Positions 25,544 to 36,174 of a DNA stretch of 64,000 nucleotides are shown here, in pieces (the stretch's first letter is position 1; each line of letters opens with the position of its first letter). A program made the position numbers and the translations under genes. The stretch spans positions 1-64,000 of the forward strand of contig PBTE01000109.1 in NCBI GenBank assembly GCA_002726515.1. The letters run 5' to 3'. Source of the DNA: Planctomycetaceae bacterium (GTDB lineage: Bacteria > Planctomycetota > Planctomycetia > Pirellulales > Pirellulaceae). The notes below the pieces were generated by a model. The model was not told the origin of the DNA. It ran no database searches and saw nothing but the letters and a program-made list of their open reading frames with translations.

Positions 25544-25745
25544 TTGTGGAACTGCGGCCACGGAGAAAGGTGTGGGAAAGCGGGTTTCCTGGTGTTCGTT
25601 TCGGGTTTTCCGCACAACCGTTGTGGCCGGGGTTTCAAGGTCGAAGATGTCCAAATCCCCGCCCGGCTTGCTCGTTTGTTCCAGTTTATTTTGTTTCGTC
25701 CACCCGACGGTCAAGGCTGCCGGGCAATAGCGATTGAGTCTGAAA

Positions 25746-26978
25746 ATGAAACTCAGCCACTTAGTTTGGAGAGAAATTGTCCATCGCCAGGGCAATTTTT
25801 GTTTAATGTTGATGTCGGTCATTTTGGCGGTCGCCTGTGGTGTGTGTGCCATCACGCTGTTTGATGCGCAACATCAATACAACCAGCAGCAGGTCGGCGT
25901 GTTGGACGACGAAATTCGTAAAATCACCAAGAATATGGGCTTCAATATTTTAATCCTGCCACGGGACCAGAATTTGGCGGATTTTTATGCGGACAACTTT
26001 GCAGCTCAAACGATGCCGGAATCTCACGTCGAGCAATTGGCCAAAAGCCGTGATGTGTTCACCATTCGCCATCTGCGTCCCGCACTCGTGCGCAAACTTG
26101 TCTGGCACGAGCAGAAGCGTCAGGTGATTTTGATGGGAGTGCGCGGTGTGGTGCCCTTTGCACATCGTAATCCCAAGAAACCCCTCGCGGACCCTGTTCC
26201 GCCCGGCAAGATCGATCTGGGGCATCTACTGGCTGAGGAATTGGCAATGACACCGGGACAACGCGTGACACTGCTGGGAGTCGATTTCGAGGTGAACAAG
26301 GTCAATCCTGTGCGAGGCAACAAGGATGACATTACCGTGTGGGTTGATCTTGCTCAGGCTCAACAAATGCTTCATCTGCCGGGTAAGATCAGCATGATTC
26401 AGGCCCTGGAGTGCAACTGTGCGTCGGTCGACCGCCTGGCCGAGATCGAAGCCGAGGTTTCAGGCGTATTGGAAGACGAGGTACAGGTGATTGAATTGGC
26501 AACCAAGGCCATTGCTCGTGCGAAGGCACGGACGCGCGTGAGTGCAGAAGGAGAGGCCAGGTTGCAGAGATGGCGACGAATTGCGGCAGCGGTGATTCCT
26601 TCGACGATCGTTGCGGCTGGTCTTATGGTGGGTCTCTTGTCATTTGCAAATGTGCGGCAGCGTCTGCAGGAGATTGGTATTTTACGGGCACTGGGTTTGC
26701 GGTCGAATCAACTGTTGGGGGTCTTATTGGCAAAACCGGCGGTCGTCGGTATGGTCGGAGCTGTGTTCGGTTATTTGCTGGGCATTGGCGGAGCCTGGAG
26801 CTTGGAGGCCACTTGGTTCATATCTGCGGACTCCCAAGCCCAGCCACAGTGGATTTTCAAGTTCACGGTACTCTTGGTGGTATTGTTGCTGACACCGCTC
26901 TTGACAGTGATGGCTGGATGGCTGCCGGCGTTTTACGCCAGTGGCAAGGATCCCGCGGAAATTTTAAACCTCGAATAG
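25746..26978 (+). CDS. FtsX/MacB-like ABC transporter permease
   Basis: A 410-residue membrane protein with one N-terminal helix (about 18-38), a large extracytoplasmic domain (about 40-270) and three C-terminal helices, the layout of the MacB/LolC/FtsX permease family. The C-terminal region holds the family-typical R-Q-R-L-Q-E-I-G-I-L-R-A-L-G-L segment, which couples to the ATPase. An in-frame TTG at 25734 is an alternative start; the ATG is preferred by codon type. The protein should act with the ATPase encoded 7 bases downstream to move lipids, peptides or lipoproteins, or to transmit force to a periplasmic partner. The previous gene is a candidate partner. No gene for a MacA-type adaptor is seen. 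Confidence 0.88.
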   Translation: MKLSHLVWREIVHRQGNFCLMLMSVILAVACGVCAITLFDAQHQYNQQQVGVLDDEIRKITKNMGFNILILPRDQNLADFYADNFAAQTMPESHVEQLAKSRDVFTIRHLRPALVRKLVWHEQKRQVILMGVRGVVPFAHRNPKKPLADPVPPGKIDLGHLLAEELAMTPGQRVTLLGVDFEVNKVNPVRGNKDDITVWVDLAQAQQMLHLPGKISMIQALECNCASVDRLAEIEAEVSGVLEDEVQVIELATKAIARAKARTRVSAEGEARLQRWRRIAAAVIPSTIVAAGLMVGLLSFANVRQRLQEIGILRALGLRSNQLLGVLLAKPAVVGMVGAVFGYLLGIGGAWSLEATWFISADSQAQPQWIFKFTVLLVVLLLTPLLTVMAGWLPAFYASGKDPAEILNLE

Positions 26979-26985
26979 GCTTTTG

Positions 26986-27687
26986 ATGTTGTTGGAACTG
27001 GAAAATGTGAACAAAACGTTTTCTTGCAATGACCACCCGGTGCGCGCGGTAGAAGACTTGTCATTACAACTCGACCGTGGGCAATTTACGGCAGTGTGTG
27101 GTCCTAGTGGATGCGGGAAATCAACCTTACTACTGATTTGTGGCGGACTCTTGCGACCCGAGACGGGAACGGTGACCCTGCATGGACATAACCTGCTATC
27201 TCTCTCGACTGAAAATCGGGCCAGTGTACGGGCGGCGCACATTGGTTTTGTGTTTCAGCAGTTTCATTTAGTACCGTACCTGAATGTGTTGGACAACGTG
27301 TCGGCGGCGTCTCTCGGCCTACGTTCCGGATCTACAGAGGATCGGGGCAGCATGGAAACACGCGCGTTAGAGTTGATTGACCGTTTTGGGTTGCGAGACA
27401 GGATCCGGCACCTGCCCGCGGAAATTTCGACCGGCGAACGACAGCGTGTGGCGCTGGCTCGCGCCTTACTGAACCGGCCGAAGTTACTGTTGGCGGATGA
27501 ACCGACAGGAAACCTGGACGAAGATAACAGTCAAGTCGTTCTGGACCACTTGCAGGAGTTTGCTGCAGCGGATGGCGCTGTGTTGCTGGTCACCCACGAC
27601 GCTGCGGCGGCCAGTCGGGCGGATTGTTTGGTCCGCATGGCAGGGGGTCAGATTGTCGACCCTGTTATGTCGAAAGGTGAGATGTGA
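26986..27687 (+). CDS. LolD/MacB-type ABC transporter ATP-binding protein
   Basis: A 233-residue ATPase with Walker A (G-P-S-G-C-G-K-S-T near residue 40), a Q-loop (F-V-F-Q-Q-F-H-L-V), Walker B (L-L-L-A-D-E-P-T-G-N-L-D) and the switch His (V-T-H-D). The signature reads I-S-T-G-E-R-Q-R-V-A-L-A-R-A-L, slightly off the usual L-S-G-G-E/Q. The D-E-P-T-G-N-L-D ending is typical of the LolD/MacB/FtsE subfamily and fits the FtsX-like permease just upstream. The start is the ATG at 26986; an in-frame TTG sits directly before it. The stop overlaps the next gene by 4 bases (GTGA), so translation of the tandem binding protein is probably coupled to it. Confidence 0.92.
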   Translation: MLLELENVNKTFSCNDHPVRAVEDLSLQLDRGQFTAVCGPSGCGKSTLLLICGGLLRPETGTVTLHGHNLLSLSTENRASVRAAHIGFVFQQFHLVPYLNVLDNVSAASLGLRSGSTEDRGSMETRALELIDRFGLRDRIRHLPAEISTGERQRVALARALLNRPKLLLADEPTGNLDEDNSQVVLDHLQEFAAADGAVLLVTHDAAAASRADCLVRMAGGQIVDPVMSKGEM

Positions 27688-29216
27688 TCAGGTCCGGGGT
27701 ATTGCATAACTTGTGGTTGTTGGCGTTCTTGTCGCTGGTGATTGTGGCAGGGTTAATTGCACTTTTGGTCTGGAATCCCCTGTCGCCACAGTCGGCAACT
27801 TCCAGTGGGTCCTTGTTGATGTACTGCGCGGCCGGTATCCGTGTTCCGGTGGACCTGATTGCCGAAGAGTATGCTCGCCAGTCCTACGGCCAGCCGATTC
27901 AGTTGCAATACAACGGGTCCAACACACTCTTGAGTCAGCTTGAAGTTTCGGGTGTTGGTGATCTGTATCTGACGGCGGATGACAGCTACATGAAGCTCGC
28001 AACTGAAAAAGGTTTGGTGCGGGAATCACTCCCTGTCGCCTGGATTCGCCCTGTGATTGTTGTTCCGCGCGGCAATCCGAAAAATATCCGTACCGCGGAT
28101 GATCTGTTGCGCCAGGACATGCGTGTCGCATTAGGTAATCCGGATGCGGCAGCCGTTGGCAAGAAGGCTCGCAAGCTGATGAAAGCTGCGGGACATTGGG
28201 AGTCGTTGTCGAAAAATGTAGTTGTGTTCACCCCTACCGTCAACGAGATCGCCACAGCGGTGAAAATTGGCAGTGCCGACGCGGGTATCGTCTGGGATGC
28301 GATCGTTTCCCAATATTCGGAATTGGAAGCGGTTCGGATACCGGAACTTGATGTGGGGACAGCACAGATTGTGCTGGGGGTCCTGACTTCATGCAAACAA
28401 CCCACGGTGGCGTTGCGGTTTGCCCGATATTTGGCGGCGCGTGACAAGGGGCTATTGATCTTTCAGGAGCAGGGATTCGACGCGGTAGACGGGGACAAGT
28501 GGGAGATAAATCCTTCTCTCACGGTTTACAGCGGGGGAGTGAATCGTCTTGCCATTCAGTCGACGCTCGAAAAGTTTCAACAACGTGAGGGGGTACAGGT
28601 CGACATGGTCTACAACGGCTGTGGAGTTCTCTGCACGCAGATGAAGGCGATGCGCGAGGGAGAGCGACATGGCGTGTTCCCGGACGCATATTTTTCCTGC
28701 GATGTTTCATTCATGGAGCAAGTGAGCGACTTGTTTCTGGAGCCTGTCAGTGTTTCTGAAACCGACATGGTGATTGTTGCGCGGCCCGGAAATCCTCTTG
28801 GAATTCGAGTGCTTCAGGACCTGACCCGACCTGGTATTCGATTAGGGGTAGCCAATCCGGATGAAAGTGCATTGGGCACCCTGACCCGGCAATTGTTACG
28901 TGAATTACAGATCGAACACGAGATTCAAGCCAATGTCAGTACGACAACACCGACTGCTGATCTGCTGATCAATGCACTGAAAGTCGGGGGCCTTGAGGCT
29001 GCTATTGTGTATCGCGCCAATACGTCGCAGGTGGCAGACGAACTGGAAGTGATCGACATTGACCACCCGCTTGCCCGAGCCGTGCAAACGTATGCCGAAG
29101 CCCAGGATACGGTTCATCGTCATACTTTTCAGCGGCTGATGGCTGCCATCGGGCAGTCACGATCCCAGTTCGAGGCGGCCGGATTTCGCTACCTGTTGGA
29201 CCTAGGGGCCCCATGA
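27684..29216 (+). CDS. Membrane-anchored protein with two tandem ModA-like substrate-binding domains
   Basis: A 510-residue protein starting with GTG in a 4-base overlap with the previous gene. An N-terminal helix (about 10-30) anchors or exports it. Two periplasmic binding protein units of the molybdate/tungstate ModA type follow. The first (about 43-265) opens S-L-L-M-Y-C-A-A-G-I-R-V-P and contains Y-N-G-S-N-T-L-L. The second (about 275-505) opens L-T-V-Y-S-G-G-V-N-R-L-A and contains Y-N-G-C-G-V-L-C. Both contain the later V-A-L/N-P-D motif (V-A-L-G-N-P-D-A and G-V-A-N-P-D-E-S). Normal ModA proteins carry one unit in about 230-260 residues. The next genes are ModB- and ModC-like, making it their binding protein. 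The ligand (molybdate, tungstate or another oxyanion) is inferred from family only. Confidence 0.85.
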   Translation: MIRSGVLHNLWLLAFLSLVIVAGLIALLVWNPLSPQSATSSGSLLMYCAAGIRVPVDLIAEEYARQSYGQPIQLQYNGSNTLLSQLEVSGVGDLYLTADDSYMKLATEKGLVRESLPVAWIRPVIVVPRGNPKNIRTADDLLRQDMRVALGNPDAAAVGKKARKLMKAAGHWESLSKNVVVFTPTVNEIATAVKIGSADAGIVWDAIVSQYSELEAVRIPELDVGTAQIVLGVLTSCKQPTVALRFARYLAARDKGLLIFQEQGFDAVDGDKWEINPSLTVYSGGVNRLAIQSTLEKFQQREGVQVDMVYNGCGVLCTQMKAMREGERHGVFPDAYFSCDVSFMEQVSDLFLEPVSVSETDMVIVARPGNPLGIRVLQDLTRPGIRLGVANPDESALGTLTRQLLRELQIEHEIQANVSTTTPTADLLINALKVGGLEAAIVYRANTSQVADELEVIDIDHPLARAVQTYAEAQDTVHRHTFQRLMAAIGQSRSQFEAAGFRYLLDLGAP

Positions 29217-30067
29217 TCCCGGCTACACCCATTGACGAGTCCAGTGCATCCCGGGTGCCGCAGTCACCGGGTCAGAAGGCACATCGTGTGGGGTCCGACT
29301 TGCCTTTCTATGCTGGGCTCATCGTGCTGGGGGGTGCGTACCTCTTTTTGCTGTTGGCCATGTTGATCGCGGATCTCTTCTACACGTCTCCCGGGCACCT
29401 GCTGGCCGCGCTGGGAAAACCGGCAATTCAGTACTCCATTGGGTTGAGTCTTATCTCGTGCAGCATCACGGCATTGCTTTCGCTTTGGGTAGCGGTTCCC
29501 ATCGGTTACCTGTTGGCGCGACATCGGTTTCGCGGTCACAGTCTGGTGGATGCGATTTTGGATATTCCAATCGTATTGCCTCCGCTGGTGGTGGGTTTAA
29601 GTCTTCTGATCTTGTTCCAATTCTGGCCGTTTCGCTTGGCAGCCGATTGGGTTGTCTATCAAATTCCGGCGGTAATCCTGGCCCAGTTCATGGTGGCTTG
29701 CGCCTTTGCGACACGCACGTTGCGAACCACTTTCGATCAGATCGACCCTCGTTGCGAGCAAGTCGCTTTAACGCTTGGCTGTAGCCGGGCGCAGGCATTT
29801 GCCAGCGTCGTATTACCTGAAGCACGACGGGGTATCATCACCGCGGCCACATTAGCCTGGGCGCGATCGTTGGGTGAATTCGGGCCCCTATTGATCTTTG
29901 CCGGCGCCACCCGAATGAAGACCGAGGTGCTCTCTACGACGGTGTTTTTGGAATTGAGCGTGGGAGATCTGGAAGCGGCTGTGGCGGTGTCGATGATCAT
30001 GATTGTGGCTGCCGTTGTTGTTCTGATGATTGCTCGCATTTGGGGTTCACGTGATTTAACGTTATGA
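29213..30067 (+). CDS. ModB-like molybdate/tungstate ABC transporter permease
   Basis: A 284-residue permease with about six membrane helices, starting in an ATGA overlap with the tandem binding protein. The cytoplasmic coupling (EAA) loop is visible as A-L-T-L-G-C-S-R-A-Q-A-F-A-S-V-V-L-P-E-A-R-R-G-I, followed by A-W-A-R-S-L-G-E-F-G-P, the classic ModB/CysT-type ending. P-I-V-L-P-P-L-V-V-G-L is also family-typical. It is slightly longer than E. coli ModB because of an N-terminal cytoplasmic extension of about 35 residues. It should form the channel used with the ModC-like ATPase encoded 66 bases downstream. Confidence 0.9.
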   Translation: MIPATPIDESSASRVPQSPGQKAHRVGSDLPFYAGLIVLGGAYLFLLLAMLIADLFYTSPGHLLAALGKPAIQYSIGLSLISCSITALLSLWVAVPIGYLLARHRFRGHSLVDAILDIPIVLPPLVVGLSLLILFQFWPFRLAADWVVYQIPAVILAQFMVACAFATRTLRTTFDQIDPRCEQVALTLGCSRAQAFASVVLPEARRGIITAATLAWARSLGEFGPLLIFAGATRMKTEVLSTTVFLELSVGDLEAAVAVSMIMIVAAVVVLMIARIWGSRDLTL

Positions 30068-30133
30068 TCATGTGCCCTGGAACGTTTGGTAGAAAATGCG
30101 GACCGCTGTCTTGGAATCAGAGAGAATTTGCAG

Positions 30134-30820
30134 ATGATTTGTGTTAAGGATCTTTCCGTTTGCATAGGCGACTTTGCTTTTAAAGGGGTGCAACTGCAAG
30201 TACCCGAAGGTGGATACGGTGTCCTGATGGGTAAGACGGGCAGTGGCAAGACGACATTGCTTGAATCGATTGCCGGGTTGAAGCCGATTCGACAGGGCCG
30301 CATTGAACTCGGTGGCAGAACCGTGACCCACATGCGCCCCGCGGAACGTGGTATTGGATATGTGCCCCAGGATGGTGCGCTGTTTGCGACCATGACGGTT
30401 TATCAGAATCTAGCCTTCGCGCTGGTTGTGCGCAGAACGCGCCGACAGAACGTGGAGCGCAGAATTGATGAAATTGCGGGGCTCTTAAGAATCAGCGACC
30501 TGCTTCAGCGCAAGCCGGCAGGTTTAAGCGGTGGGGAACGGCAACGGGTTGCGCTGGGGCGAGCCTTGTCGTTCGAACCGGCCGTGTTGCTTCTGGATGA
30601 ACCACTCAGCGCGCTGGACGATGACACGCGTTACCAGATGTACGATGTGATTCGTCGCGTGCGTGAGCATACCCGGGTGACTACGTTACACGTCACACAC
30701 AACCGACACGAGGCCTCAGAAATGGCAGATGTACTTTTCCAGATGACAGATGGAGGGGTATCTGAAGTGAGGGGTGGCCCGGAGGCAATTAGTAATCGCA
30801 TTGAAAATCTGGGTGGATGA
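30134..30820 (+). CDS. ModC-like ABC transporter ATP-binding protein
   Basis: A 228-residue ATPase beginning at the ATG at 30134; the frame is open to a TTG at 30086, but the domain starts at the later Met. Walker A is G-K-T-G-S-G-K-T-T, the signature L-S-G-G-E-R-Q-R-V-A-L-G-R-A-L-S, and Walker B V-L-L-L-D-E-P-L-S-A-L-D, followed by V-T-H-N. It has only the nucleotide-binding domain; the C-terminal molybdate-binding (TOBE) domain found in E. coli ModC is absent. It should energise the ModB-like permease. The gene ends 154 bases before the HesA-like gene, which may have its own promoter. Confidence 0.88.
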   Translation: MICVKDLSVCIGDFAFKGVQLQVPEGGYGVLMGKTGSGKTTLLESIAGLKPIRQGRIELGGRTVTHMRPAERGIGYVPQDGALFATMTVYQNLAFALVVRRTRRQNVERRIDEIAGLLRISDLLQRKPAGLSGGERQRVALGRALSFEPAVLLLDEPLSALDDDTRYQMYDVIRRVREHTRVTTLHVTHNRHEASEMADVLFQMTDGGVSEVRGGPEAISNRIENLGG

Positions 30821-30834
30821 AGAAATAAGGAAAG

Positions 30835-30862
30835 TTGACAAAGTCCACCGCGTCGTTTTAAC
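30835..30862 (+). promoter_or_regulatory. Candidate sigma-70-type promoter upstream of the HesA-like gene
   Basis: TTGACA at 30835-30840 is a perfect -35 hexamer; TTTAAC at 30857-30862 is a 4/6 match to TATAAT at 16-base spacing. It lies in the 154-base gap after the ModC-like gene, about 110 bases before the next start. Planctomycete promoters are poorly characterised, so this is tentative. Confidence 0.3.
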
Positions 30863-30974
30863 GGGAAAAGCAGTTTGTATTGAGGACCATTTTGAAAGTT
30901 GAGAATGGCAAACGATCCGCCGCCAGGCGAGGCTTCGTGATCATCGCAGGCCACAATCAACATCTGAACATTCC

Positions 30975-31751
30975 ATGACCAATCAGCGAAGACTAACTGA
31001 CGAAGAACGCGCGATTTGGGAATGGCAGATGTGGGTGCCAGATTTCGGGGAGGCCGGACAGGAGAAATTGAAGAATGCCACAGTTTTAATTTCACGTTGC
31101 GGTGGAGTGGGAAGTGCAGTGGCGTACCAACTGGCGGCGGCAGGCATTGGTCGACTGGTGATTGCGCACCGCGGAAATATAAAGCCCAGTGATCTGAACC
31201 GTCAATTGCTCATGACCCATGACGCGATTGGTACACCACGAATAGATTCGATCGAACGTCGTCTGCAGCAACTAAATCCGAGAATGGATGTCGTTGTTGT
31301 GAATCAAAACGTGGAGGAAACCAACGCGGCGGACTTGGTGGAACAGGCCGATGTCGTGGTGGACTGTGCTCCACTGTTCCAGGAACGTTTTTTGTTGAAT
31401 GACCAGGCTGTTCGCCTTGGCCGGCCCATGGTCGAATGTGCGATGTACGATCTGGAGGCGCGCATCATGACGATCTTGCCTGGTAGGACGGCTTGCCTGC
31501 GATGTCTTTATCCACGTTTTCCCAGTGAATGGAAACGCGAATTTCCGGTGTTTGGAGCTGTGGCGGGTACGGTTGGAAGCATGGGTGCCATGGAAGCCAT
31601 CAAGCTGGTTGCTGGGTTCGGTCAGCCTCTGGCGAACCGGTTGCTGGTCTATGACCTCCGCGATTTTTTCTTCCAAACGGTCCATATTCATCGCGACCCC
31701 AACTGTTGCTGTTGCGGTACGGAAAATTCGGGTATGGAAGAAAAGTGTTGA
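30975..31751 (+). CDS. HesA/MoeB/ThiF-family protein
   Basis: A 258-residue E1-like fold protein. The Rossmann segment reads S-R-C-G-G-V-G-S-A-V-A-Y-Q-L-A-A-A-G, followed by D-L-N-R-Q-L-L-M. A zinc site is intact as C-L-R-C and the C-terminal C-C-C-C-G. Compared with E. coli MoeB, the first Gly of G-x-G-G-x-G is Arg, the D-F-D segment is replaced by H-R-G, the metal-binding Asp of D-C-T-D-N is lost (D-C-A-P-L), and the active-site Cys position is not Cys. These traits recall the HesA subgroup (nitrogenase-linked in cyanobacteria) more than true MoeB. Its place after molybdate-type transporter genes supports a role in molybdenum handling or cofactor maturation, but adenylation activity is doubtful. 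Confidence 0.82.
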   Translation: MTNQRRLTDEERAIWEWQMWVPDFGEAGQEKLKNATVLISRCGGVGSAVAYQLAAAGIGRLVIAHRGNIKPSDLNRQLLMTHDAIGTPRIDSIERRLQQLNPRMDVVVVNQNVEETNAADLVEQADVVVDCAPLFQERFLLNDQAVRLGRPMVECAMYDLEARIMTILPGRTACLRCLYPRFPSEWKREFPVFGAVAGTVGSMGAMEAIKLVAGFGQPLANRLLVYDLRDFFFQTVHIHRDPNCCCCGTENSGMEEKC

Positions 31752-31902: not shown

Positions 31903-34900
31903 ATGCCACCGCTAAACTGCTTTGCCATACGAACGACGATTTGCCTGGTCGCAATCTTCTGCGGGGATCCGTGGTTACTCGCCGGCGACTGGCCCATGTG
32001 GCGCTACGATGCTAACCGCAGTGGCGCCTCACCCCATGAATTACCCGCTGAACTCCGCTTGTCCTGGGTCCATCAGTACACGCAGCGCGAGCAGGTCTGG
32101 GATGATCCACTCAACCAGGATTTGATGCCCTATGACCGGGTCTTCGAGCCGATCATTTTCAATGATCGGATGTTCTTTGGTTTCAATGACCGTGACAAGG
32201 TGGTGGCTGTCGACCTTCAGTCAGGCCGTCAGTTGTGGCAGTTTTTCACAGATGGACCTGTGCGATTTCCCCCGGTGGCTGCCGACGGCAAGGTGCTTTT
32301 CACCAGTGACGACGGGTACCTTTACTGTGTTAATGCCGCAGACGGGCGGCTATTGTGGCGTTTCCGCGGTGGCCCATCGAATCAGAAAGTTATTGGTAAT
32401 CATCGTGTTATTTCTGCCTGGCCTGCCCGGGGCGGTCCGGTGATCCGTGACGGTCATGTCTACTTTGCTGCCAGCATCTGGCCGTTCATGGGAACGTTCC
32501 TCTATGCCTTGGATGTGGAAACTGGAAATCTCATTTGGGTGAATGACTCCACCAGCGCACAATACATCAAGCAGCCGCACGGGTCACCATCATTTGCAGG
32601 TGTGGCCCCGCAAGGTGCACTGGTCGCCACGCAAAATGTGTTGCTTGTACCCGGTGGACGAAGTGTACCGGCTGCCTTCGAGCGGACAACGGGAAAGTTC
32701 ATGCACTTTACAATCGGAGGGAAAGGGACAGGAGGTTCCTTCGTTTGTGCTGACGAAAAAGATTTCTATGTACATACGCGTATTCGCGGTGTTCGCGCGT
32801 GCGACTTGCAAAGTGGTAAAAAATCGGAGCAGGTCGTCAACGAGCCGGTGCTTGTTGATAATGGAATGGTCAGCTTTGATGGCAGCCTGTTGCAGGCAAA
32901 AACGAAAACCAGCACGTTTTCAACCGCTGTCGATGCTGTGGGGGATGTCATTCAGGCGGGAAGCCGTATCTATGCGGCCGGCAAGGACAGGATCACCGCC
33001 TTGGACCAGGAGGGTCATGTGATGTGGTCGCAACCGGTCCGGGGTCAGGTTTTGCGGCTTCTTGCCGGTGGTGGCAAGTTGGTCGCAGTCACGAAGGATG
33101 GCCGCATACTTGTTTACGGTGAGAAATCAGTTCTGGATCAGCCGCTACGGGAGTCCTTTGAACTTGAACCCCCGGAAGCCGATTCAGAAGCGAGTGCAGC
33201 CCAGTTGATTGACCGTACCGCTGCCACGGAAGGGTATGCCATTTGGTACGGTGCGGATGACGCTCGACTTCTTTCGTCGGTTCTACGGCAGTCCAAGCTG
33301 CGCATGCTTGTGGTAGAACCTCGAGACCAGCGAGTCAAAGAGCTTCGCCAGGCGTTTGATGCTGCGGGCCAATATGGCGGGCGGATCACCGTGCACAAGG
33401 GTCATCCACGATCATTCATGGCACCCCCCTATATTGCGAATCTGGTGGTTGTTGGACCGTCTATGGCCGAGCAGGATCAGTTGTCCCAGGATCTCAAATC
33501 GATCTACCAATCAGTTCGCCCATATGGGGGTGCCCTCTGGTTGTCAGCTTCGCGGGAAAAGTCGCAACACCTTGTGAAAATGGTAGAACGGTTAGAGCTG
33601 GAAAATGCTCAAACGATTGTCTACGACGAAGGTCTGCTGGTTGTCCGGGTGGGCCCATTGGCAGGCGCCGCTGATTGGACCCATCAGTATGGGAATATCG
33701 CGAATACGGTCAAATCGAATGACCGGCGCGTCAAATTACCTTTGGGTGTGCTGTGGTTTGGAGGTAGTTCCAATCTGGACGTGTTACCCAGGCACGGACA
33801 TGGACCACCGGAACAAGTCGTAGGTGGCCGCACGATTATTGAAGGCATGGATTCGCTCAGCGCTCGAGACACGTACACCGGGCGCGTCCTCTGGAAGCGG
33901 ACTTTTGACAGCCTCGACAATTTCGGCGTTTATTTCGACAAGACCTACAACGACACTCCCCTCAGTACGGGTTACAACCAGGTACACATTCCGGGAGCCA
34001 ATGGGCGCGGCACGAACTACATTGCGACCGAGAAGGAGATTTTTGTCATTCTCGGAAGCCATTGTGAGGTGTTGGATGCCCGAACGGGCGCCACGAAGCG
34101 CCAAATCAGCATGCCATCCAGGGAGCCAGACAGGATGCCGCCCTTGTGGGGTTTTATCGGTATTTACGAAGAGATTCTGCTGGGTGGCCTTGGCTTCGCC
34201 AACTACAGCGGTGAAAAAGGAAACCAGGCTTCACGACGGGAACTGGCGATTCTTGACATGTCGGCCAGTGATGGTTTGGTTGGCTTTGATCGGGAAACTG
34301 GCCGCGTCCGGTGGCAGGCAGATTCCCGATTCAGCTTTCTTCATAACGGGATTGTTGCTGGTGGTGGCCGTGTCTATTGCCTGGATAAACTACCGGGAAG
34401 CGTTGAAGCCGGACTTCGCCGTCGCGGTTTGTCCCGCGATCAAAAGTATCGTCTGGCTGCGTTGGATGTGCGTACAGGCGAGTTGCTGTGGGAGCGAGAA
34501 ACCGATATTTTTGGAACCTGGTTGGGCTATTCCGAGGAGTACGACGTTCTGCTGCAGGCTGGTGCTCTAGCCGGTGACCGGTTGCGCGATGAGGTGGGTC
34601 AGGGGATGATCGCCTATCAGGGTGTGGATGGAACCGTGATCTGGAAGGATTTGCAGCTTGCATATAGTGGACCTTGTATGCTGCACCATGACACGATCAT
34701 CACGAACGCGAATTCTTACCAGCGTTCCAGCGGCGCGTACAACTTGCTGGATGGTTCTCCCAAACTGGTGGCCAATCCACTCACCGGACAGCAGGTCCCT
34801 TGGCAGTTTACTAGGAACTATGGTTGCAATACGGCGATCGCCAGTGAGCACTTGTTAACGTTTCGTTCAGGTGCGGCTGGATTTTACGACCTGACAGGTT

Positions 34901-36174
34901 TAAGTGGCACTGGAAATTTTGGTGGCTTCCGTTCCAGTTGTACGTCAAATCTGGTCGCGGCGGACGGCCTGTTGAACGCACCGGACTACACGCGCACCTG
35001 CTCTTGTAGTTATCAGAACCAAACCTCGTTGGCGCTGGTCCACATGCCGGGACTGGAGACTTGGACCAATAGTGTTTATGGAATTGAGGATCGAGTTCGA
35101 CGAATTGGCATCAACTTCGGGGCGCCCGGTGATCGCCTGAGCGATGCAGGTACACTGTGGCTGGACTATCCGAGCGTCGGTGGCGAATCGCCCCAGGTCA
35201 TGGTGAAACTAAGTGGAGATGGGCTGTCTTATTTTCGCCGCCATGCGTCGGCCATTCACACGGGCGATCACCCCTGGGTGGCCTCGTCGGGAGTGGAAAA
35301 CGTCAGAACAGTGTCGCTCCGTGTAGCGAAACGCGTACCGACGGAAAGCGAACTGGTGATTCCCATCGTGGCAGGTCGTGACGATGCGGAAGAGCGTTCC
35401 GACGGGTCGATGTATCTAAACAGCAGTGATTTAGAACTGAGCGAGGATGGTTCACCGCAGTTGGTCGGGATGCGTTTTACGAAGATTCAACTCGGACCAG
35501 ATGACGAGATTCAAGATGCCAGGATTCAGTTCACTACAAAGGAAGTAGGCGAGGATCCGGTGCGGCTGTTGATTCACGCTGTGGCGGCGGATGATGCCGG
35601 CAGTTTTAACGCCACGACCTATGACATTTCGTCACGCTCCAAAACGACCGCCACCGTGGCATGGTCTCCTGGTCGCTGGGGAAAGATTGACAGCATGGGT
35701 GCCGATCAGCGGACACCCAATCTGAAAGCACTTGTTAATGAGGTCATTCGTCGTCCAGGTTGGAAGCCCGGAAACGCCATTGCTTTTGTTATTTCCGGAA
35801 GAGGGAAACGTACGGCAGTGTCCTACGAGGGCAATGCCGAACAAGTCTGCCAATTGAAGATCAAACTGGCTGATCAGTCCTCTCAAAAAAACTCCGTCGT
35901 TTCCAAGCCTGCCGGCGCCCACTACACCGTCCGCCTTTACTTTGCCGAACCAACCGATGTTTTCCAGGGCGAACGAGTGTTTGATGTGGCCCTGCAGGGT
36001 CAAACCGTGTTGCGCAACTTTGATGTGGTCAGGCAGGCGGGGAACCCGTTGCGAAGCGTTGTTCAACAATTTCCTCACATTGATGTGAAAGACGTTCTGG
36101 AAATTTCTCTGACACCGAAATCTGACGGATCGGTTGGTCCCATCTTGAATGGTGTCGAACTGGTGTCTGAGTAA
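31903..36174 (+). CDS. Giant exported PQQ-like propeller protein with methyltransferase-like and malectin-like domains
   Basis: A 1423-residue protein with a signal peptide (hydrophobic residues 11-24, then L-A-G-D-W-P-M-W-R-Y-D). A first PQQ-like propeller covers about 30-410 (blades such as V-D-L-Q-S-G-R-Q-L-W). Residues about 430-585 resemble a class I methyltransferase fold: G-Y-A-I-W-Y-G-A-D-D at 444, an acidic V-V-E-P end of strand 2, and I-T-V-H-K-G-H-P. The glycine-rich S-adenosylmethionine loop is degenerate. A second propeller follows (about 590-1130). Residues about 1145-1320 match a beta-sandwich module common in secreted proteins (R-D-D-A-E-E, then G-M-R-F and A-R-I-Q-F-T, with R-P-G-W-K-P-G-N-A). 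The last 90 residues are malectin-like (Y-T-V-R-L-Y-F-A-E-P). It is a secreted or surface protein of unknown ligand. Confidence 0.85.
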   Translation: MPPLNCFAIRTTICLVAIFCGDPWLLAGDWPMWRYDANRSGASPHELPAELRLSWVHQYTQREQVWDDPLNQDLMPYDRVFEPIIFNDRMFFGFNDRDKVVAVDLQSGRQLWQFFTDGPVRFPPVAADGKVLFTSDDGYLYCVNAADGRLLWRFRGGPSNQKVIGNHRVISAWPARGGPVIRDGHVYFAASIWPFMGTFLYALDVETGNLIWVNDSTSAQYIKQPHGSPSFAGVAPQGALVATQNVLLVPGGRSVPAAFERTTGKFMHFTIGGKGTGGSFVCADEKDFYVHTRIRGVRACDLQSGKKSEQVVNEPVLVDNGMVSFDGSLLQAKTKTSTFSTAVDAVGDVIQAGSRIYAAGKDRITALDQEGHVMWSQPVRGQVLRLLAGGGKLVAVTKDGRILVYGEKSVLDQPLRESFELEPPEADSEASAAQLIDRTAATEGYAIWYGADDARLLSSVLRQSKLRMLVVEPRDQRVKELRQAFDAAGQYGGRITVHKGHPRSFMAPPYIANLVVVGPSMAEQDQLSQDLKSIYQSVRPYGGALWLSASREKSQHLVKMVERLELENAQTIVYDEGLLVVRVGPLAGAADWTHQYGNIANTVKSNDRRVKLPLGVLWFGGSSNLDVLPRHGHGPPEQVVGGRTIIEGMDSLSARDTYTGRVLWKRTFDSLDNFGVYFDKTYNDTPLSTGYNQVHIPGANGRGTNYIATEKEIFVILGSHCEVLDARTGATKRQISMPSREPDRMPPLWGFIGIYEEILLGGLGFANYSGEKGNQASRRELAILDMSASDGLVGFDRETGRVRWQADSRFSFLHNGIVAGGGRVYCLDKLPGSVEAGLRRRGLSRDQKYRLAALDVRTGELLWERETDIFGTWLGYSEEYDVLLQAGALAGDRLRDEVGQGMIAYQGVDGTVIWKDLQLAYSGPCMLHHDTIITNANSYQRSSGAYNLLDGSPKLVANPLTGQQVPWQFTRNYGCNTAIASEHLLTFRSGAAGFYDLTGLSGTGNFGGFRSSCTSNLVAADGLLNAPDYTRTCSCSYQNQTSLALVHMPGLETWTNSVYGIEDRVRRIGINFGAPGDRLSDAGTLWLDYPSVGGESPQVMVKLSGDGLSYFRRHASAIHTGDHPWVASSGVENVRTVSLRVAKRVPTESELVIPIVAGRDDAEERSDGSMYLNSSDLELSEDGSPQLVGMRFTKIQLGPDDEIQDARIQFTTKEVGEDPVRLLIHAVAADDAGSFNATTYDISSRSKTTATVAWSPGRWGKIDSMGADQRTPNLKALVNEVIRRPGWKPGNAIAFVISGRGKRTAVSYEGNAEQVCQLKIKLADQSSQKNSVVSKPAGAHYTVRLYFAEPTDVFQGERVFDVALQGQTVLRNFDVVRQAGNPLRSVVQQFPHIDVKDVLEISLTPKSDGSVGPILNGVELVSE

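Follow-up and report, generated by a model that had tools for sequence, protein, structure and literature searches.

General background on the ModABC, TupABC and WtpABC importers is given in PMC5517513. In ModA, the anion is contacted by Ser12, Ser39, Pro124, Ala125, Val152 and Tyr170, as tabulated for perrhenate complexes in PMC8895017; in that source, the perrhenate-contacting residues are equated with those that bind molybdate. Two other systems provide precedents that are relevant for the interpretation of the locus described below. According to PMC8025302, the tandem binding domains of GlnPQ, which differ in specificity, serve a single importer, and in the ModA of A. baumannii, a disulfide bond is reported to lower the affinity for molybdate from 0.177 to 30 nM (PMC11734730). 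A literature search, which for the most part did not extend to subscription papers, found no paper on a tandem ModA or on this locus.

The DNA analyzed here (hereinafter, the window) consists of 64,000 nt of Planctomycetaceae bacterium (GCA_002726515.1, contig PBTE01000109.1, positions 1-64,000, forward strand) and encodes a binding protein with two domains and one predicted anchor along with ModB-like and ModC-like proteins. All genes and codons discussed below are on the + strand of the window.

A tandem binding protein with two ModA-fold domains

The gene for the tandem protein (27684-29216) starts with a GTG codon, encodes 510 amino acids and overlaps each of the neighboring genes by 4 nt. 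The protein contains two matches to the Pfam family PF13531 (SBP_bac_11; 266 bits), and both isolated halves score above the cut-off of 25 for this family (169.8 bits for half 1 and 101.6 bits for half 2). The whole protein also exceeds the cut-off of the TIGR01256 modA profile (103.7 bits, with the cut-off at 62.5), as does half 1 in isolation (83.7 bits), whereas half 2 alone falls under it (24.9 bits). The two halves share 29% identity, with an E-value of 6e-22 obtained in a search space that consisted of half 2 joined with seven neighboring proteins and was larger than intended; from that comparison, the alignment between the halves alone was retained.

The AlphaFold model of the whole protein, built with 77 relatives (pLDDT 94.1, pTM 0.87), comprises two complete two-lobed domains, and half 2 was also modeled alone, with 52 relatives (pLDDT 95.1, pTM 0.89). 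Domain 1 (residues 41-268; 27804-28487), which carries the conserved Cys48 and Ser79, is predicted to adopt the ModA fold, with Z 22.1 over 223 residues and an rmsd of 2.1 in structure comparison with E. coli ModA (1wod). The isolated domain 2 (residues 278-504; 28515-29195), which carries the invariant cysteines, matches the same structure with Z 26.0 over 218 residues and an rmsd of 2.2. The only anchor in the model is a predicted hydrophobic helix formed by residues 7-30 (27702-27773). The original prediction of a tandem pair of ModA-like domains behind a single membrane anchor is borne out by the two PF13531 matches, the two-lobed folds and the single helix; structure prediction, the check that had been proposed for it, yielded neither a single binding domain nor a half lacking the two-lobed fold. 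The predicted structures thus confirm that one chain contains two complete ModA-fold domains behind an N-terminal helix anchor.

Predicted ligand pockets and conserved residues

To compare the pockets, the numbering of E. coli ModA was placed on the printed alignment by hand counting. At the ModA contact places, half 1 contains Gly51, Ser79, Val158, Val186 and Trp204, and half 2 contains Gly285, Cys313, Leu397, Ala425 and Tyr443, with Val158 and Leu397 aligned with Ala125. The full ModA ligand set of Ser12, Ser39 and Tyr170 is absent from both halves, where the respective residues are Gly51, Ser79 and Trp204 in half 1, and Gly285, Cys313 and Tyr443 in half 2. The ligand segments of the two halves do differ, as originally claimed (YNGSN at 76-80 and YNGCGVLC at 310-317).

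Conservation was assessed in a set of 64 two-domain proteins collected by whole-protein searches (26 from a sample of genomes of the order and 38 from a sample of the phylum, with five pairs more than 80% identical). Four residues of domain 2 are invariant in all 64 proteins, namely, Cys313 (codon 28620-28622), which occupies the place of ModA Ser39, Cys339 and Asp340 (28698-28703), and Tyr443 (29010-29012), at the place of ModA Tyr170. Cys395 is found in 32 of these proteins (the window protein has Ser) and Cys283 in 15; in half 1, Cys48 is present in 54 proteins, and 60 of the 61 proteins that are not gapped at position 79 contain Ser79. The original prediction placed a C-x-x-x-C pair (Cys313 and Cys317 in the numbering used here) at the expected ligand site of half 2. 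However, Cys317 (28632-28634) is present in only 4 of the 64 relatives, and accordingly, we rejected this pair as the site: C-x-x-x-C is a local feature, and Cys313 together with Cys339-Asp340 is the feature of the family. The invariance of the four pocket residues also led us to reject the view of half 2 as a decaying copy. Judging from the alignment with ModA, the side chains of Cys313, Cys339-Asp340 and Tyr443 could meet at one ligand. As for the accompanying suggestion of different ligands, different affinities or a redox element, the difference between the ligand segments points to different ligands or jobs of the two halves, and a redox element is possible.

The 80 named loci used below for the analysis of gene neighborhoods were retrieved with patterns containing YNGCG and MACD, so that residue counts derived from them are biased, and they were rejected as proof of cysteine conservation; the set of 64 proteins was collected without such patterns. 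The biased residue counts cover 104 loci that are not independent, several of the pattern-retrieved ones coming from the same genomes as loci found by whole-protein searches. L073 and L106, with stops within the match, were omitted from these counts, the truncated L119 was omitted from alignment A3 and from the half-2 rows, and alignment A4 includes 53 of the 78 half-2 rows.

Origin and distribution of the two-domain form

In a phylogenetic tree of 65 domains, from which L152 was omitted, all 26 second halves form one clade (support 100/100), and the first halves together with four one-domain proteins form the other clade (96/86). The one-domain proteins fall in four separate places of this tree. 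The simplest reading of this topology is a single, old duplication followed by several losses of half 2 that left half 1 in place. Three of the four one-domain genes adjoin ModB-like and ModC-like genes (L060-L062), suggesting that half 1 is sufficient for an importer.

The possibility that the gene is peculiar to the window's genome was rejected because the two-domain form is present in 26 of the 60 genomes of the order sample, including the window's own. In these and the following counts, G338, in which the gene is represented by its half 2 end alone, and G331 and G216, where the start is missing, were scored as tandem; G046, in which a short match at a contig edge spans the boundary between the halves, was scored as non-tandem. 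Judging by the record titles, the two-domain form is found in Planctomycetota, Verrucomicrobiota, Kiritimatiellota, Lentisphaerota, Hydrogenedentota, Poribacteria and Omnitrophota as well as in one record from Chitinivibrionales.

Importer genes and molybdenum context

The gene for the tandem protein adjoins genes for a ModB/WtpB-like permease (29213-30067) and a ModC/WtpC-like ATPase (30086-30820), both with matches under the curated cut-offs. The permease, which is encoded by a separate gene and is not fused to the binding domains, scores 181.6 bits with TIGR01581 (cut-off 210.3) and 150 bits with TIGR02141 (cut-off 182.6). The ATPase, a protein of 244 amino acids, scores 221 bits with the WtpC model NF040840 (cut-off 440). 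Given that its match is confined to the first 213 of the 347 positions of the model (1-213), the regulatory region normally present at the C-terminus, a TOBE domain, is apparently missing.

Of the 81 sources compared, which comprise the window and the 80 loci, 78 have a ModB-like gene near the gene for the binding protein. In 26 of the sources, there are ThiF/MoeB-type genes nearby, and in 19, ThiS/MoaD-type genes encoding proteins with a Gly-Gly end; many of these loci are interrupted by contig ends, and the type was tested on three ThiF/MoeB-type and five ThiS/MoaD-type neighbors, with one of the latter five exceeding the MoaD-family cut-off. The window encodes a ThiF/MoeB-type adenylyltransferase (30975-31751; PF00899, 186.8 bits), which contains a C-terminal run of four cysteines (NCCCCG). 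Several relatives (for example, L074, L102 and L116) carry a MoaD/ThiS-type gene between the ModC-like and ThiF genes; the corresponding gap in the window comprises 154 bases (30821-30974), with no MoaD/ThiS-type gene listed there.

MoaA-family matches were detected in all 60 genomes of the order sample, 56 of them over the cut-off. Canonical ModA, defined as a TIGR01256 match at E <=1e-25 outside the tandem gene, is present in 1 of the 26 tandem genomes compared with 13 of the 34 other genomes of the order sample (p 0.002), and in 4 of the 37 tandem genomes compared with 112 of the 257 others in the phylum sample (p 1e-4); the limits of 1e-25, 1e-20 and 1e-30 used in this work were chosen after the score gap had been seen. 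At stricter limits, canonical ModA is found in 2 (1e-30) or 1 (1e-35) of the 37 tandem genomes. TupB-like permeases with scores of at least 130 bits, all of them under the curated cut-off, are present in 8 of the 26 tandem genomes. A profile search for WtpA (TIGR03730) yielded no match in the window's genome; the order sample as a whole contains a single, very weak match, which comes from a genome without the tandem gene. Altogether, 17 tandem genomes, that of the window included, have neither a canonical ModA nor a TupB-like permease. This absence, despite the presence of MoaA-family matches, favors import of a molybdenum or tungsten oxyanion by the tandem system, most likely via half 1, and domain 1 together with ModBC probably imports molybdate or tungstate. 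The lack of equivalents of Ser12 and Tyr170 in half 1 argues against its simple equivalence with ModA.

Genome-wide association with P2 and four-cysteine propellers

Upstream of the binding gene, the window encodes a cysteine-rich protein of no known family that we denote P2 (24305-25543), an FtsX/MacB-type permease (25734-26978; PF02687, 67 bits) and a LolD-like ATPase (26983-27687; TIGR02211, 205.6 bits, under the cut-off), the gene of which is the upstream neighbor that overlaps the binding gene by 4 nt. Searches of NCBIfam with P2 gave no match, those of Pfam gave nothing noteworthy, and P2 does not resemble any solved structure (best E 1.1); Cys26 and the Cys285-x-Cys287 motif are common to the 20 aligned members of the P2 family (alignment A5).

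Farther downstream is a gene for a large β-propeller protein of 1423 amino acids with a malectin-like end (31903-36174; PF13360, PF11721), in which the region 34825-35007 encodes four cysteines (C, C, C-x-C). These cysteines are invariant in the alignment of 18 of 18 propeller family members; given that these members were chosen by the C-x-C motif, only the invariance of the other two cysteines is independent of the selection. Comparison of the cysteine region with the PDB gives weak, general similarity, with tetrathionate hydrolase (E 1.4e-9) followed by quinoproteins and BamB, and no function of the four-cysteine propeller family was found in this analysis. In the order sample, some tandem genomes contain many matching propeller places (30 in G009 and 26 in G024, pieces counted separately), and others contain none.

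Both P2 and the propellers are linked to the two-domain form across genomes, in counts that come from related genomes and were made without a species tree. P2 is present in 23 of the 26 tandem genomes of the order sample (all but G012, G038 and G057) compared with 0 of the 34 others, and in 33 of the 37 tandem genomes of the phylum sample (one of these, G089, scored on a weak match with E 3.4e-5) compared with 13 of the 257 others. It is absent from all four genomes that have half 1 alone. The same contrast holds within individual families: in f21, all 11 tandem genomes and none of the 5 others have P2, and in f1 (order sample), P2 is present in 20 of the 21 tandem genomes but in none of the 16 others, so that shared ancestry alone is a poor explanation of the tie. 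The propellers are found in 25 of the 26 tandem genomes compared with 1 of the 34 others in the order sample (whole-protein search, E <=1e-20; the match in G047, to the malectin end only, was scored against the association), and in 33 of the 37 compared with 15 of the 257 in the phylum sample (cysteine-region search, E <=1e-30). Among the genomes of the phylum sample, 42 have both P2 and the propeller, 4 have P2 alone and 6 have the propeller alone; four of the 37 tandem genomes are devoid of P2, and the propeller is missing from four different ones. Domain 2 co-occurs genome-wide with P2 and the four-cysteine propellers, a relationship not included in the original prediction.

Most of the 13 genomes that have P2 without the tandem gene encode paired domains of a different kind. 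In 10 of them, there are two ModA-like domains, either fused or in separate proteins; G090 and G334 encode single ModA-like domains, and no ModA-like domain was found in G134. The gene order is propeller-SBP-SBP-ModB-ModC-P2-FtsX-LolD in G173 and SBP-P2-FtsX-LolD-SBP-ModB-ModC-propeller in G341. The place of Cys339-Asp340 is occupied by His-Asp in all 12 partner domains examined, including those from G218 and from the second system of G099, and the place of Cys313 is occupied by a residue other than Cys, so that the site differs in the unfused pairs. The second domain that accompanies this gene set thus comes in two versions, each possibly supplying a soft-metal ligand beside the same aspartate. 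In L154, L155 and L160 (from G100, G203 and G218, respectively), the ModA-like pair is fused with the His-Asp partner first, apparently the product of an independent fusion event elsewhere in the phylum. In the genome G099, the tandem gene coexists with an unfused His-Asp pair (L171, L209).

Proposed function and alternative explanations

We favor, with confidence somewhat short of even, the interpretation that the tandem protein is a subunit of a ModBC-type importer in which domain 1 binds a molybdenum or tungsten oxyanion and domain 2 binds a thiol-seeking cargo for the P2/FtsX-LolD/propeller system. Domain 1 would capture a molybdate/tungstate-type oxyanion and pass it to ModB and ModC. The duplicated domains would have taken different jobs, with the pocket of domain 2 rebuilt through replacement of the ligand serine by Cys313, addition of Cys339-Asp340 and retention of the tyrosine; the cargo bound by domain 2 via Cys313 and Cys339-Asp340 is most likely a metal or metalloid that seeks thiols, or else a thio-oxyanion. 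In what is the weakest step of this scheme, P2 and FtsX/LolD might exchange or deliver the cargo of domain 2, and the secreted four-cysteine propellers, which are probably the users of the cofactor, might receive the product. Several observations speak against this interpretation, namely, the lack of Ser12 and Tyr170 equivalents in half 1, the variability of Cys395 and Cys283, the different site in the unfused pairs, the relatedness of the genomes counted, and the existence of tandem genomes devoid of P2 or of the propeller.

The two invariant cysteines of domain 2 could also form a redox switch, whereby a Cys313-Cys339 disulfide would open or close the pocket and tune the binding or hand-over of molybdate, for which the A. 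baumannii ModA offers a precedent. This explanation appears unlikely given that the A. baumannii disulfide (C141-C189) is located at other positions, that Cys313 occupies the place of the ligand Ser39, and that a switch leaves the association with P2 and the four-cysteine propellers unexplained. The association with P2 is also a difficulty for a GlnPQ-like arrangement, in which both domains would share one type of ligand, a Mo or W oxyanion, but differ in affinity or selectivity, and would serve one importer: P2 goes with half 2, and none of the four genomes that have only half 1 encodes it. Such an arrangement would fit the GlnPQ precedent as well as the retention of Tyr443 in half 2 and Ser79 in half 1, but the replacement of Ser39 by an invariant Cys and the addition of a second invariant Cys make it doubtful.

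The strong co-occurrence with P2 and the propellers could be taken further, to an importer in which both halves would serve a cargo of the P2/propeller system other than molybdate, an idea that accommodates the lack of two of the three ModA ligand side chains in half 1 and the ModB and ModC matches under the curated cut-offs. We regard it as improbable because there are genomes in which half 1 and ModBC are present but P2 and half 2 are not, because canonical ModA is rare and the 17 tandem genomes have neither it nor a TupB-like permease despite the ubiquity of MoaA-family matches in the order sample (60/60), and because MoaD/ThiF-type genes are among the neighbors. Hardly any weight can be given to the view that domain 2 is a structural or docking leftover without a ligand: although domain 2 was lost several times while domain 1 was kept, its pocket residues are among the most conserved in the tandem protein and its predicted fold is complete.

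If the favored assignment of a thiol-seeking cargo to domain 2 is true, a cysteine pocket in the ModA fold widens the known cargo of this importer class. The tie between domain 2, P2 and the propellers provides a testable entry into a propeller family that is multi-copy in planctomycete genomes. More tentatively, the wider locus, with genes for P2, FtsX, LolD, the paired ModA-like domains, ModB, ModC, MoaD/ThiF and the four-cysteine propeller, may represent a new, previously undescribed pathway in which a thiol-seeking metal or thio-metal bound by domain 2 and the imported molybdenum or tungsten oxyanion, or a cofactor derived from it, would give rise to a Cys-bound cofactor in a large family of secreted propellers of Planctomycetota and related phyla.

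Comparison with known systems

Among proteins with a ModA-like fold and other ligands, PEB3 and AcfC (3fj7, 4jb7) resemble domain 2 in fold, half 2 alone matching 3fj7 at Z 22.9, lower than the 26.0 obtained with ModA; in structure comparison of half 2 alone, PEB3, AcfC and sulfate binders all rank below ModA, although kinship with them is still possible. The redox-regulated ModA of A. baumannii (8zj6, 8zj8) likewise combines the ModA fold with a functional cysteine pair. The cysteines, however, are located elsewhere (the places of C141 and C189 are occupied by non-cysteines in half 1, and half 2 was judged via its alignment with half 1), the protein has one domain, and no P2 or propeller partners are reported in the accessible portion of its description. 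GlnPQ, with SBD1 and SBD2 (6h30), is similar in having two binding domains in a row, in one chain and for one importer; its domains, however, are fused to the transmembrane subunit and serve for amino acids, whereas here the domains form a separate, anchored subunit of the ModA type.

ModA itself (TIGR01256; 1wod) shares with the tandem protein the fold of each half, the whole-protein score over the curated cut-off and the ModB-like and ModC-like genes that follow. The tandem protein differs from ModA in having two domains and a helix anchor, Gly and Trp in half 1 for Ser12 and Tyr170, and, in half 2, Cys for Ser39, an added Cys-Asp and a score that, for this half alone, is under the TIGR01256 cut-off. 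Given that it has neither one domain per chain nor the full set of ligand side chains, we do not class the tandem protein as ModA; half 1, nevertheless, probably works in the manner of a ModA-type binding protein.
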